Below are positions 2,433-6,896 of a stretch of 18,713 nucleotides of DNA, one piece after another. Position 1 is the stretch's first letter; the number at the start of each line of letters is the position of its first letter. Under the pieces are notes generated by a model. The model ran no database searches, was not told the origin of the DNA, and saw nothing but the letters and a program-made list of their open reading frames with translations. The stretch comes from a bacterium (GTDB taxonomy: Bacteria; Thermosulfidibacterota; Thermosulfidibacteria; Thermosulfidibacterales; Thermosulfidibacteraceae), in contig JALVZS010000222.1 in assembly GCA_027022065.1 (NCBI GenBank), positions 1-18,713 on the forward strand, given 5' to 3'. Made by a program: the position numbers and the translations under genes.

Positions 2433-2775
2433 TTTTTGGAGTGTTGTTCTTGTTGAGGTTCCTTTTGTTTCAAGAGAAGGTGTAAAGTTAAGACCAGCGG
2501 TTGTCCTCTTTGAGGAAAGAGATAACATAGTGATTGCAGGAATAACAAGCAATTTGAAGATGCAGGGCGTCTTTATTCCGAAAGAGGAGGGAATAGTAGT
2601 GGATAGCGTGGTTAAGTTAAACTATATCTTTACGGTGTCCAAGCAGAGAATAAGAAAAAGGCTTACGCATCTTTCTTTTGAAAAGAAGCTGGAAATTTGT
2701 AGTGAGTTAGCAAATAGAATGAGCTTTTGCTTGAATAATCAGTGGAGGAAGATAGATGCTAAAAATAAGGCCTGA
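2398..2775 (+). CDS. MazF/PemK-family toxin-like protein (putative endoribonuclease)
   Basis: MazF/PemK toxins are small beta-barrel ribonucleases that cut mRNA when not held by their antitoxin. This 125-residue protein has the order of segments expected for the family: VVLVEVPF near the N-terminus, then KLRPAVVL with the conserved R-P, then IAGITSN, and a late V-V-K-L-N-Y-I-F-T-V segment. The start is uncertain. ATG 2398 and ATG 2404 are the only usual start codons before the conserved part, and both give 12-16 extra residues. The usual G-D before V-V-L-V reads W-S here. G+C over 2521-2700 is about 38% by hand count, against about 52% at 3001-3120 in hisC, which suggests acquisition. Its end overlaps the hisC start by 20 bases. 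Confidence 0.72.
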   Translation: MSMIRYGTVWLSFWSVVLVEVPFVSREGVKLRPAVVLFEERDNIVIAGITSNLKMQGVFIPKEEGIVVDSVVKLNYIFTVSKQRIRKRLTHLSFEKKLEICSELANRMSFCLNNQWRKIDAKNKA

Positions 2776-3850
2776 GCTTGAGGATCTCGTTCCCTACGAT
2801 CCGGGAAAGCCCATAGAGGAATTGGAGAGGGAAAAGGGAATAAAGGCGGTGAAGCTTGCCTCCAACGAAAATCCACTTGGTCCCTCTCCAAAGGCGGTTG
2901 AAGCCATAAGGCAGGCTGCATTCAAGGTTAACAGATACCCGGATGGAGCCTGCTATTATCTTAGAAAAAAGCTTGCGAAGTTTTTGGGAGTTGGTGAGAA
3001 GAACCTCATCTTCGGGAACGGCTCCAACGAGATAATAGAGATCCTCATGCGCACCTTTCTTGAGCCTGGGGATGAGGTGGTTTACGCATGGCCCGCCTTT
3101 GTGGTTTACAAGCTCATATCAAAGGCTATGGGCTTGAAGGCGATTGAAGTGCCTTTAACAGAGGATCTTCGCCACGACCTTGATGCCATGGTGGATGCAA
3201 TAACTGAAAGAACAAAAATGGTCTTTGTGGCAAATCCCAACAATCCCACTGGCACTATTGTGAAGAAAAACGAAGTAGAGCGCTTTCTTTCTAAGATTCC
3301 CGATCATGTGATAGTGGTCTTTGATGAGGCATACTACGAGTTTGCCTGTGATGAGCCTGATTTTCCCGACCTTAAAAAGATAGCTGTTGGTGGTGAAAAG
3401 AATCTCATCCTCATGCGCACCTTTTCCAAAGCCTATGGTCTTGCGGGGCTTCGGATAGGATACGGCATATCCAATGAGACCATTATAGATTACATGAATA
3501 GGGTAAGACAGCCCTTTAATGTAAATCTTTTAGCTCAGGAAGCCGCTTTGGCTGCCTTAGACGATCAGGACCATGTGAAGAAAACCGTTGAGCTTACCAA
3601 AGAGGGGCTTTTTTACTTCTACAAGTGCTTTGAAGAGATGGGTCTTGAGTATGTTCCCTCTTATGCCAACTTCGTTTTGGTGAAGGTGGGCAAGGGCAGG
3701 GAGGTTTTTGAGAAGCTTCTTGATAGAGGCGTTATTGTAAGAGCCATGGACGGATACTCTTTGCCTGAATACATCAGGGTGAATGTGGGCTTGCCTGAGG
3801 AGAACGAGAAGTTTATCAACGCCCTCAAGCAGGTCATTTCCGAGGTTTAG
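2756..3850 (+). CDS. hisC: Histidinol-phosphate aminotransferase
   Basis: HisC is a PLP-dependent fold-type I aminotransferase that converts imidazole-acetol phosphate and glutamate to histidinol phosphate in histidine synthesis. Many members also act on aromatic keto acids. The 364-residue length is normal. Visible motifs are the N-terminal LASNENPLGPSP, GNGSNEII (about 87-94), NPNNPTG (160-166), D190 in VVFDEAYY for the PLP ring nitrogen, and TFSKAYGLAGLRIGYG with K225 as the Schiff-base lysine. GGAGGA at 2744-2749, 6 bases before ATG 2756, supports the start, which lies inside the end of the toxin gene. The tyrA gene lies further downstream in the same run, so this enzyme may also serve tyrosine/phenylalanine synthesis (inference). 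Confidence 0.96.
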   Translation: MLKIRPELEDLVPYDPGKPIEELEREKGIKAVKLASNENPLGPSPKAVEAIRQAAFKVNRYPDGACYYLRKKLAKFLGVGEKNLIFGNGSNEIIEILMRTFLEPGDEVVYAWPAFVVYKLISKAMGLKAIEVPLTEDLRHDLDAMVDAITERTKMVFVANPNNPTGTIVKKNEVERFLSKIPDHVIVVFDEAYYEFACDEPDFPDLKKIAVGGEKNLILMRTFSKAYGLAGLRIGYGISNETIIDYMNRVRQPFNVNLLAQEAALAALDDQDHVKKTVELTKEGLFYFYKCFEEMGLEYVPSYANFVLVKVGKGREVFEKLLDRGVIVRAMDGYSLPEYIRVNVGLPEENEKFINALKQVISEV

Positions 3851-3856
3851 CAGGAG

Positions 3857-3872
3857 TGTTCCACGTGGAACA
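3857..3872. other. parS: parS centromere site 1 (ParB-binding palindrome)
   Basis: TGTTCCACGTGGAACA is a perfect 16-bp inverted repeat and matches the known bacterial parS sequence (B. subtilis TGTTTCACGTGAAACA and the Pseudomonas TGTTCCACGTGGAAC form). ParB loads here and with ParA/SMC segregates the chromosome. The site lies in the 27-base gap between hisC and the PLD-ATPase gene, in the place where that gene's ribosome-binding site should be. An identical copy lies 2.3 kb downstream. Confidence 0.9.
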
Positions 3873-3877
3873 TTGCC

Positions 3878-6031
3878 ATGCAGCTTTCATTTCTTGAAGA
3901 TACAGTAGCCAGCACCAACCTTATATGTTTCTACAAGGGAAAGAGGATATCCTCTGTATTTGATTACTTGAAGGGCTTTCGCAGGGTGCTGGTTCTCACC
4001 TTTTCCTTTTCACCGGTTCATGTGCTTACCCTGTTTGATGAGCTTGGTTATGAAGAGGCGGATGTGGTAATGGGCCTTCGCGGGTCCGACGTGGAGGAGG
4101 TGTTGGGAAATTTTGTGGGCGAGCTTTTTGATATTCCCAAACTTTCTCAAGAGATACAGGAGCTTTTATCTGTAAATGTGAGGGCTGCATCTAAAGTGGC
4201 TTCGGGGAAATACAGGGTTTTTACCGCTTCTTTTCCCATGCATGCCAAATTGGCTGTGCTTTACGGGGAGAGGGATCCAGAAAGGATCATCTGGGGCAGT
4301 GCCAATTTTACCAAGCAGGGCTTGGGTGGGCAGCAGTATGAGATACTGGAGGTGGTTGATCCCGAAGATGCACCGGAGAAGTTTGCAGCCCTTGAGGCGT
4401 TGGGGAATGAGGTGCTTTCCAAGGCAAAACCCCGCTATCCCGATAGGCTTATAAAGAGATGTTCTGAGATGCTCTCGTCTTCTAATGGCACTGAAAGAAC
4501 GGTGGTGGCTGATACAGTGGATATAGTTGAATCTGTGATAGAGCAGGCGGATAGGATCAGGGTTTGTGCCCCTCCAGAAGTGCTGCAGAGGGCTTTAAAT
4601 CTTACTGTTCAAAGGGTTAAGGAGCAAAGCCTCAGGTTGGAGGACAGAAAAAAGGTTGTGGCGGATCTTGTTCCTCTGGTTTCCGAGCAAAGGGGCAAAA
4701 AGCTCATTTTCGGTTCTAAAGGCGAGATTTCCAAGAAGGCGTCGCAGATAGTTCAGGTGTTTAAGGGGTCCCAAAGAGAGCAGGAAGTCTGGAAGGATAA
4801 GAGACCCTGGTGGGTTTTTAGAGAAGACGGAACGCTGATATGCAGGGATACAACGGATGCGGTCTCGTCTTTGGATGTTGATTGGGAAGATTCCCTGAGG
4901 CTGCTTGTGAATTTCGTTGACTCTTACAGAATAGGTGTGGGAGCGAGGGAGGGCTTTAGAACCGCATCTTATGTGATGGAAGCCCTCCTGTATCTGTTGC
5001 AGTCTCCTTTTATGTGGAGAATCCGCTATCTTGTGAGTAAGTATCAGCACATAGGGCTTGAGATTTGCGATATACCGCCTTTTCTCGTAATAGCTGGTGA
5101 GTCAAGCACAGGAAAAACCTATCTTCTCAGGAGGATGGCGGAGCTTTTGGGCTACCCCGATACGGTTTATCAGTATTCTTTGAAGGCTGCCCGCTATTCT
5201 GATGAAGCCGGGGATAGGGAAATTGCCTACATGCTTGCTTCAAGGGGAGTATTTCCTGTTCTTGTGGATGAGATACAGCCACAGTATTTCTCGTCGCAGG
5301 AAGCTAAAAGGAGCAATTCGGGAATCTTCTTTGTAAAGGCTTTGGCAAATAGAATTCCGGATACGCCATGGGATGAGGCATCGTGCCTCATTGCTACCTG
5401 CAACTTTCTAACCTTTGCCGCTCCTTTTGAGCTTGTGGGCAGAAGAGTTTACTATCTGCCCCTTAAGTATCGCCTTTACAGAAACAGGGTGGAAGCTTCG
5501 GGAAAGCTCGTTAAGCAACTGGACAGCAGAGTATTTACCGCTTTTTCTGCTTACATGGAGGCTTTTTTGGAGAGGGTGGAGGAGAACGAGTTTGAGTCTG
5601 AGGAGCTGGTAAAGAGAATGAAGGAGGACTTTCTATACCCTGCAAGGAGTATAGTTAAGAGCATGTTTGAAAGGGCAAGGATCCCTAAGCCTGAATGGTA
5701 TCCTGAGCGTAGCTTTTCCAATCTTTATTATGCTGAGGTTGCCAGAACCACATGGATAGGCATCGTTAAGCAGCACCCGCATCTTTTTGAGAAGAAAGAG
5801 GTGATAGACGGCGTTGAGTATTACAATGTTACCCCAGTCCTTACAGGCTATTCCAAAAATGATATAAGAAGTCTCACTGCAAAACTTCCCTCCGGTGTTC
5901 TACAGACCTCTTCTGGAGTATACTTGCTTCACGCAGGTGAGTTTGAGAAGTTTGTCGGAAAAGAGGTTTTTGAAGAGATTAGAAGAAAAAACCTTTGGGG
6001 CATGATAAAAAGGATAACCGGCTGGTCTTAG
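3878..6031 (+). CDS. Uncharacterised PLD-type phosphodiesterase/P-loop ATPase fusion protein
   Basis: I do not recognise this 717-residue protein as a named family. Residues 35-160 look like a phospholipase-D-superfamily nuclease domain with a single active-site set: H122-x-K124, GSANFT with N143, and E155. This resembles BfiI-like and helicase-associated PLD domains, which work as dimers. Residues 400-530 form an ATPase: Walker A GESSTGKT (407-414), Walker B VFPVLVDE (458-465), a sensor-1-like CLIATCN (N509) and a GRR (521-523) that could be an arginine finger, reminiscent of AAA+ or superfamily 3/DUF927-type ATPases. No membrane segment or signal peptide is seen. The only usable start is ATG 3878; it has only a weak ribosome site (GTGGA), part of parS. 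The gene splits hisC from tyrA. Its G+C is near that of its neighbours, so it is not obviously recent. Its role may be in defence, DNA processing or something centromere-linked; this is open. Confidence 0.8.
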   Translation: MQLSFLEDTVASTNLICFYKGKRISSVFDYLKGFRRVLVLTFSFSPVHVLTLFDELGYEEADVVMGLRGSDVEEVLGNFVGELFDIPKLSQEIQELLSVNVRAASKVASGKYRVFTASFPMHAKLAVLYGERDPERIIWGSANFTKQGLGGQQYEILEVVDPEDAPEKFAALEALGNEVLSKAKPRYPDRLIKRCSEMLSSSNGTERTVVADTVDIVESVIEQADRIRVCAPPEVLQRALNLTVQRVKEQSLRLEDRKKVVADLVPLVSEQRGKKLIFGSKGEISKKASQIVQVFKGSQREQEVWKDKRPWWVFREDGTLICRDTTDAVSSLDVDWEDSLRLLVNFVDSYRIGVGAREGFRTASYVMEALLYLLQSPFMWRIRYLVSKYQHIGLEICDIPPFLVIAGESSTGKTYLLRRMAELLGYPDTVYQYSLKAARYSDEAGDREIAYMLASRGVFPVLVDEIQPQYFSSQEAKRSNSGIFFVKALANRIPDTPWDEASCLIATCNFLTFAAPFELVGRRVYYLPLKYRLYRNRVEASGKLVKQLDSRVFTAFSAYMEAFLERVEENEFESEELVKRMKEDFLYPARSIVKSMFERARIPKPEWYPERSFSNLYYAEVARTTWIGIVKQHPHLFEKKEVIDGVEYYNVTPVLTGYSKNDIRSLTAKLPSGVLQTSSGVYLLHAGEFEKFVGKEVFEEIRRKNLWGMIKRITGWS

Positions 6032-6050: not shown

Positions 6051-6896
6051 ATGAAGGTTTCCATAATAGGCTTTGGCTTGATAGGTGGCTCCATTGCCCT
6101 GAATCTCAAGCTTATCAATCCTTCCATAGAGATCGTGGGGGTGGATAGGGATGAGAGCAACTTGGACTACGCCATAACCCACGGCTTCTGCGATGTTCCA
6201 CGTGGAACAATTGGGGAAGAGGTTGCCGGATCCGATGTTGTGGTTATCGCCACCCATCTTGATGCCTTTGTTCCTGTGGCTGAAAGGCTTGTCAGGGTGC
6301 TTTCGGGTAGTGAGCTTGTTATGGATGTGGGTTCCGTTAAGGGATGGGTGGTGGAGAATGTTAAACCCATCTTTGATGAAGTGGGCATCTCTTTTGTTCC
6401 AGCCCATCCCATAGCGGGTACAGAAAAAAGCGGTGCCATGAATGCGGTTAAGGGTCTTTTTGACGGTGCAAGGTGTATCCTGACTCCGTCAGGAAACGCT
6501 CCCGAGGAGGTGAAAAGGGCAAGGCTCTTCTGGGAGCTTCTCGGCTCCCGCGTGGAGGTTCTTGATCCCTACGAGCACGACAGCATCTTCTCTCAGGTGA
6601 GCCATCTTCCCCATCTCATAGCCTATGCCCTTGTGGACTATGTTCTTGCAAGGGACGAGGGTGCTGCCCTCAACTATGCGGGAGGGGGATTCAGGGACTT
6701 CACGAGGATTGCGGCAAGTTCTTCTGCCATGTGGGTGGAGATCTTTAAGAAGAACAGGGGTTTTGTGGTCAGGGATCTTGAAAGCTTCATTTCGGTGCTT
6801 CAGCGCTATCTGGAGGATCTCAAAAAGGGAGACTGGGAAGCCCTTGAAAGTATATTAAGCAGGGTTTCTAAAGAGCGCGCCCAGATGAGGTTTTGA
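6051..6896 (+). CDS. tyrA: Prephenate dehydrogenase
   Basis: TyrA oxidises prephenate (or arogenate) to 4-hydroxyphenylpyruvate with NAD(P)+ in tyrosine synthesis. The 281-residue protein opens with a Rossmann motif, IIGFGLIGGSIA, and the acidic D of VDRDE follows at the second strand, which favours NAD+. Further family segments are DVGSVKG, PAHPIAGTEKSG and SQVSHLPHLIAYAL, with the catalytic and substrate-binding His residues. There is no chorismate mutase or ACT domain. GAGGAG at 6040-6045, 5 bases before ATG 6051, sets the start over a GTG at 6045. The gene contains a complete parS site, read as D-V-P-R-G-T around residues 48-53. It is the last gene of the + strand run, with only 12 bases to the convergent hpt. 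Confidence 0.95.
   Translation: MKVSIIGFGLIGGSIALNLKLINPSIEIVGVDRDESNLDYAITHGFCDVPRGTIGEEVAGSDVVVIATHLDAFVPVAERLVRVLSGSELVMDVGSVKGWVVENVKPIFDEVGISFVPAHPIAGTEKSGAMNAVKGLFDGARCILTPSGNAPEEVKRARLFWELLGSRVEVLDPYEHDSIFSQVSHLPHLIAYALVDYVLARDEGAALNYAGGGFRDFTRIAASSSAMWVEIFKKNRGFVVRDLESFISVLQRYLEDLKKGDWEALESILSRVSKERAQMRF
6194..6209. other. parS: parS centromere site 2, inside tyrA
   Basis: This is a second perfect TGTTCCACGTGGAACA, identical in all 16 bases to the site at 3857-3872. It lies wholly within the tyrA reading frame, where it is read as the end of GAT followed by GTT CCA CGT GGA ACA. Parts of these codons are A/T-ending (CCA, CGT, GGA, ACA), unlike the CCC, AGG, GGC and ACC common nearby, as expected if DNA-level selection maintains the site. 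Confidence 0.9.

Follow-up and report, generated by a model that had tools for sequence, protein, structure and literature searches.

A PLD nuclease-AAA+ motor fusion encoded between hisC and tyrA as a candidate anti-plasmid protein of the TrgA/AgaP family

An intact nuclease-motor fusion between hisC and tyrA

The window (the whole 18,713-nucleotide stretch of Thermosulfidibacteraceae DNA analysed here) carries gatA-gatB, a PemK-type toxin gene, hisC, an open reading frame of 717 aa, tyrA and other genes. What kind of protein does this reading frame encode, and does its position between two parS-like sites say anything about its role? As the initial annotation had stated, the frame (P0001) occupies positions 3878–6031 of the + strand and begins with ATG; it is flanked by hisC (2756–3850) and tyrA (6051–6896). 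Its GC content (0.469) and codon usage match those of its neighbours (0.465–0.520 for the other window genes, with an AT-rich toxin gene at 0.381), so composition gives no sign of a recent arrival, which also agrees with that annotation.

The PLD residues H122, K124, G140-S-x-N143 and E155, the Walker A motif G407-ESSTGKT414 and the Walker B motif VFPVLVDE (residues 458–465) were all found at the positions first assigned to them. When 27 family members (P0001 included) were aligned, H122, S141, G412, K413, D464, N509 and R523 were each present in 27 of 27, N143 in 26 and K124 in 24, with R in the other three, while position 155 was E in 20 and N in seven. Since these residues are conserved over the 27 members, their presence in P0001 is not due to chance. 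Together with the predicted folds, the motifs and their conservation indicate that P0001 joins a PLD nuclease to an ATPase with the key residues of both intact, as had been proposed. AlphaFold2, run with 13 relatives, modelled the whole protein with a mean pLDDT of 72, and residues 300–717 alone with a pLDDT of 81 and a pTM of 0.80.

The N-terminal domain (model residues 13–191, positions 3914–4450, + strand) matches PF09565 in Pfam with an E value of 4.7e-6 and 26.5 bits against a cut-off of 23.8. In VIA comparisons, its predicted model was closest to NgoAVII R (4rct, Z 11.9, rmsd 3.6 over 146 residues), followed by SauUSI (7clg, 11.7), Nuc (1byr, 11.5) and BfiI (2c1l, 9.3), and on this modelled structure the domain is a BfiI/NgoAVII-type PLD nuclease. 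Phospholipid enzymes and polyphosphate kinase were also matched structurally, which reflects the common fold only, and were rejected as identities of the domain. Pfam gave no B3 match in P0001, in which residues 190–310 are poorly modelled.

The motor core covers residues 310–625 (positions 4805–5752, + strand; residues 310–700 when counted together with the C-terminal part) and carries the AAA+ helicase signature, namely Walker A and B, an Asn in the sensor-1 position (N509) and an invariant Arg (R523). Using the predicted whole-protein model, VIA matched it best to SCCmec Cch (5dgk, Z 13.6, rmsd 3.9 over 239 residues), the next matches being SaPIBov1 Rep, MCM, African swine fever PrimPol and poxvirus D5/E5. 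A domain-only model scored Z 12.9 to both 5dgk and 8tch, about 10 to MCM and about 8 to D5/E5, and Foldseek concurred on Cch and D5/E5. Judged by these models, the motor has its nearest kin in two helicases, SCCmec Cch and SaPI Rep, and in the D5/MCM group. Sequence searches of the PDB, profile-based ones included, returned only PLD nucleases and generic P-loop/AAA proteins and did not reach Cch, so this placement stands on predicted structures. The original label of "P-loop ATPase" thus holds for the ATPase motifs and was too generic for the motor, which appears to be a Cch/D5/MCM-like AAA+ ring helicase.

Behind the motor, residues 626–700 or thereabouts (positions 5753–5977, + strand) are predicted to form helices and two beta hairpins (pLDDT 81) of winged-helix-like character, and the family alignment shows an invariant W626 and a conserved F/W692 in this part. 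The family alignment and a hydrophobic-moment score further delimit a basic amphipathic C-terminal tail, RKNLWGMIKRITGWS (positions 5978–6028, + strand). Most members likewise end in a basic hydrophobic segment of 10–15 residues, such as KKGFWARLFG, KKGFFGKIFGG and KNLWGMIKRITGW; one member (G026) has no such tail. The tail of P0001 ranks in the top 3% of the protein's own segments for hydrophobic moment and positive charge, and the tail ranks under 10% in 12 of the 27 members, relatives being counted without correction for phylogeny. In many relatives the tail resembles the membrane-targeting tail of MinD. By this analogy it may bind the membrane, and the reported insolubility of the relative TrgA is compatible with such a tail (PMC6122466).

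The combination differs from those of known systems. NgoAVII and SauUSI likewise couple a PLD nuclease to an ATP-driven motor. In these enzymes the motor is an SF2 helicase, accompanied by a reader domain of the B3/SRA type, whereas P0001 has a single AAA+ motor and no match to any SF2 family in Pfam up to an E value of 1. BfiI and NgoFVII share the PF09565-type catalytic domain and the H-K-N-E set, but they are about 350 aa long, lack a motor and carry a B3-like reader domain. Conversely, SCCmec Cch, SaPI Rep, poxvirus D5 and MCM, which the motor resembles most in structure (Z about 13), are helicases that serve the replication of mobile elements or chromosomes and have no PLD nuclease. Matches to DISARM DrmC, Zorya ZacB and the SspE-like PbeA were weak and confined to the PLD motif; membership in DrmC was rejected at 14.4 bits against an NCBIfam equivalog cut-off of 133.

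The parS-like sites and the history of the locus

The first parS-like site, TGTTCCACGTGGAACA (positions 3857–3872, no strand assigned), lies in the gap between hisC and the P0001 gene and ends 5 bp before the ATG, in the leader of the gene, where 21 nt separate AGGAG from the ATG. The second copy of TGTTCCACGTGGAACA (positions 6194–6209, no strand assigned) falls within tyrA, 143 bp in. When the window was shuffled with its dinucleotides preserved, 0.05 matches at up to three mismatches were expected by chance. These two exact 16-mers are the sole matches within two mismatches in the assembly, which is 88% complete, so further parS sites may be missing from it. The assembly encodes a chromosomal-type ParA-ParB pair adjoining ATP-synthase genes. 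Regulation of the P0001 gene by ParB at the first site is possible.

The sister genus (G001) has the gene order dnaN-gyrB-gatA-gatB-hisC-tyrA with a hisC-tyrA gap of 83 bp. There the second site is kept at the same tyrA codons, while the first site and the P0001 gene are both absent. In two further host relatives (G004 and G005), gatB-hisC-tyrA are likewise adjacent, and no P0001-type gene was found in any of eight same-order genomes. The gene thus splits a pair which these relatives keep together with nothing between, and the adjacency in G001, G004 and G005 suggests that the ancestral operon was probably uninterrupted and that its tyrA already contained parS, at least by the time of the ancestor shared with G001. 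To this operon the window lineage added the PLD-AAA+ gene, the parS-like site in the leader of that gene and a toxin-antitoxin pair (2226–2775). This pair lies between gatB and hisC and consists of a 68-aa antitoxin-like ORF (2226–2432) and a PemK/MazF-like toxin (PF02452, E 2.6e-10); it is AT-rich and is absent in G001, in which only a few bp separate gatB from hisC.

We scanned 30 homologue loci for TGTTNCACGTGNAACA and found only three two-mismatch sites, none of them a convincing parS. Bracketing by parS, as first described, is thus real locally, with one exact site beyond each end of the reading frame, but it is not a trait of the family (0 of 30 loci), and the centromere setting is specific to the host genome. 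Most likely, the gene came to lie near parS by coincidence, through insertion into an operon close to ori in which parS was already present.

Two published proteins belong to the same family

P0001 had been said to belong to no named family. This holds insofar as there is no curated full-length model in Pfam, NCBIfam or PADLOC, and searches of these and of PHROGs returned partial matches only, to the PLD motif or to generic AAA; however, TrgA and AgaP are published members, after which we propose the name TrgA/AgaP for the unnamed family. Collinear full-length relatives with the same PLD-then-motor layout, as a survey of homologue domain order showed, occur on an Athalassotoga plasmid (E 6e-37, 91% of the query) and in Arcobacter (5e-19), Lactobacillus (5e-10) and L. 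salivarius (1e-6). Plasmid-borne copies were found in Athalassotoga, Arcobacter, lactobacilli and many haloarchaea, and further copies, on contigs either chromosomal or unassigned, come from Desulfurellales (Hippea), Spirochaetia, Syntrophomonadaceae, Lysinibacillus and an Aenigmatarchaeota bin. Six other bacterial genomes among 386 sampled carry relatives (about 1–2%), while in one Lactobacillaceae genus all 50 of 50 genomes have at least one copy and many have two; we take this genus to be Limosilactobacillus, because an L. fermentum-type protein and TrgA occur in it. No relatives were found in phages by tblastn with P0001 or a Hippea-type protein, nor in two scans of viral contigs. The family tree gave support for joining AgaP to the rest of the haloarchaeal copies and TrgA to the L. 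salivarius protein, and P0001 formed a long divergent branch (length 2.5) whose place is not settled.

Neighbours of family genes include type I restriction-modification (R-M) genes (L045, L135), a type III methyltransferase gene (L005) and Argonaute genes (L013, L150–L152). SbcCD/Mre11-Rad50-like genes adjoin the family gene in three lineages (L058:9587-13599, L011:9910-15382 and L138:2909-7130). The lactobacillus genus with a family member in all 50 genomes repeatedly carries a paralogue that is not TrgA (L144, L145, L146, L147, L148); where inspected, it lies near alpha/beta-hydrolase-like and amino-acid permease genes, and it appears to be a core gene of that genus. On L. salivarius megaplasmids (L007, L010, H40–H46), the TrgA orthologue is situated near replication-initiator genes and is repeatedly split by an IS3-type transposase or frameshifted. 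Family copies in L055, L066 and L067 are also broken.

TrgA of Limosilactobacillus reuteri 6475 (LAR_0821) has a published length of 755 aa. Its loss is reported to raise plasmid transformation at least 100-fold in viable strains, and both pJP067 transformants screened carried trgA mutations; the protein, described as insoluble, could not be purified, and cleavage was not demonstrated (PMC6122466). The frame L135:8087-10354 encodes 755 aa, agrees with the published mutation table at 16 of 16 reference bases, has a GGG codon for G664E and lies directly downstream of hsdR, in agreement with the published setting. As four other loci in the same genus fit all 16 bases, this frame is TrgA or a close orthologue; residues were mapped on one of these four (L130), in which the mutated residues are identical. 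TrgA is 48% identical to its L. salivarius relative. Its direct link to P0001 is weak (about 20% identity over 322 residues), and the two share the full-length domain order, HxK...GSxN, Walker A/B, the sensor Asn, the invariant Arg and the basic tail. TrgA blocks plasmid transformation and its gene, unlike that of P0001, adjoins type I R-M. Among the escape mutations, S408L hits the Walker A Ser/Thr (T414 in P0001) and R522C the invariant Arg (R523), M502I adjoins the sensor Asn, G411R and K412R lie just past the P-loop, and premature stops at 613, 639 and 700 delete the C-terminal part including the tail. No escape missense change fell at a PLD catalytic residue. Since the escape mutations fall in motor motifs, the selection imposed by plasmids acts on the motor, a part that the accessible text of the TrgA report, in noting the PLD part only, leaves aside (PMC6122466).

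AgaP of Natrinema pellirubrum was located on pNATPE02 at L150:6001-8151, where nine of nine published residues match and the frame starts 64 bp after the Piwi gene. The intact 717-aa frame is annotated in the pNATPE02 record as three hypothetical ORFs, two of them on the wrong strand. AgaP has the same layout as P0001, with a P-loop motor (its Walker A ends GGKG) and a tail, and differs in having a long-A Argonaute partner (the APAP system) and an insert of about 50 residues between HxK and GSxN. Its PLD residues are essential: alanine mutants of H105, K107, G157, S158 and N160 lost toxicity, and H105A/K107A abolished both toxicity and plasmid restriction (PMC11442185). Argonaute is needed to curb this toxicity, and together the two restrict plasmids and also suppress a single-stranded DNA virus (PMC11442185). 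The terms ATPase, Walker and P-loop do not appear in the accessible part of that paper, and in the available portions of neither report (PMC6122466, PMC11442185) is the motor or the family recognised. The nuclease half is thus necessary in one member (AgaP) and the motor half implicated in another (TrgA).

Proposed function and its alternatives

With a probability of roughly 0.6, we consider P0001 to be a stand-alone restriction protein of the TrgA/AgaP family directed against plasmids, that is, against invading replicons. Plasmid restriction is established for TrgA and AgaP only (PMC6122466, PMC11442185), and by analogy with their phenotypes the "solitary defence nuclease" among the functions first suggested is probably the right one. 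The gene probably entered the gatB-hisC-tyrA operon by insertion, the parS neighbour being incidental. The Cch/D5/MCM-kind motor would assemble on the DNA of an invader, probably where this is replicating or locally unwound, as a ring that translocates with ATP; cutting would fall to the N-terminal PLD domains of BfiI type, two of which pair into one active site in BfiI; and the basic amphipathic tail would anchor the complex at the membrane. Plasmid restriction by P0001 itself, the ring, the order of events, discrimination of self from non-self and membrane tethering are what we infer from the relatives and the models. P0001 is divergent from TrgA, so its function may have shifted, and no Argonaute lies beside its gene, though AgaP toxicity requires restraint by Argonaute.

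A host factor for DNA processing or replication quality, for example one clearing stalled or excised replicons, would block plasmids as a side effect. A housekeeping role of this kind would fit the presence of the family in every genome of the Lactobacillaceae genus, often with a second paralogue besides TrgA, the stable Desulfurellales locus beside rpsT-groESL, and the copies adjoining SbcCD/Mre11-Rad50, NurA, RecQ or PIF1-like genes. We regard it as unlikely, given the patchy distribution elsewhere, including the absence from all same-order relatives, the viable and better transformed trgA nulls (PMC6122466), the frequent disruption in L. salivarius megaplasmids and the frequent R-M or Argonaute neighbours. 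That the main target is phages rather than plasmids is distinctly less probable still: the defence-type neighbours and the virus suppressed by NpAgo-AgaP (PMC11442185) would suit it, but the direct phenotypes concern plasmids, the accessible TrgA data include none on phages (PMC6122466), and neither phage nor viral collections held homologues. The initial annotation had also offered a factor working at the ParB-bound region. Such a chromosome-segregation factor, or a gene regulated by ParB at its leader, would account for two exact sites without counterpart elsewhere in the assembly, one of them so near the start codon, and for their location, which in the sister genus is close to dnaN-gyrB; in Arcobacter, moreover, the plasmid copy adjoins parAB. 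The latter is ordinary plasmid backbone, however, and with no convincing parS at the relatives' loci and a tyrA site that exists in G001 without the gene, this explanation is very improbable.

More broadly, and only tentatively, the restriction reading might extend to a widespread single-protein anti-plasmid immunity, in which a membrane-tethered ring helicase-PLD nuclease senses the structure or replication state of a replicon rather than sequence or methylation, is a core gene product of one genus or more and is open to recruitment by Argonaute. Our literature search found no paper uniting the TrgA/AgaP family. Two unlinked published observations, a block to plasmid uptake in a lactobacillus and an Argonaute partner in a haloarchaeon, now become one family with a defined motor, into which many plasmid and chromosome genes labelled "phospholipase D family" fall. 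Genes of this type may hinder genetic engineering of lactobacilli and other hosts. Among the lactobacillus records, the 252-kb "L. fermentum plasmid" L008 (CP033373.1) has a gene order in common with the chromosomal-scale L146 and looks chromosomal.
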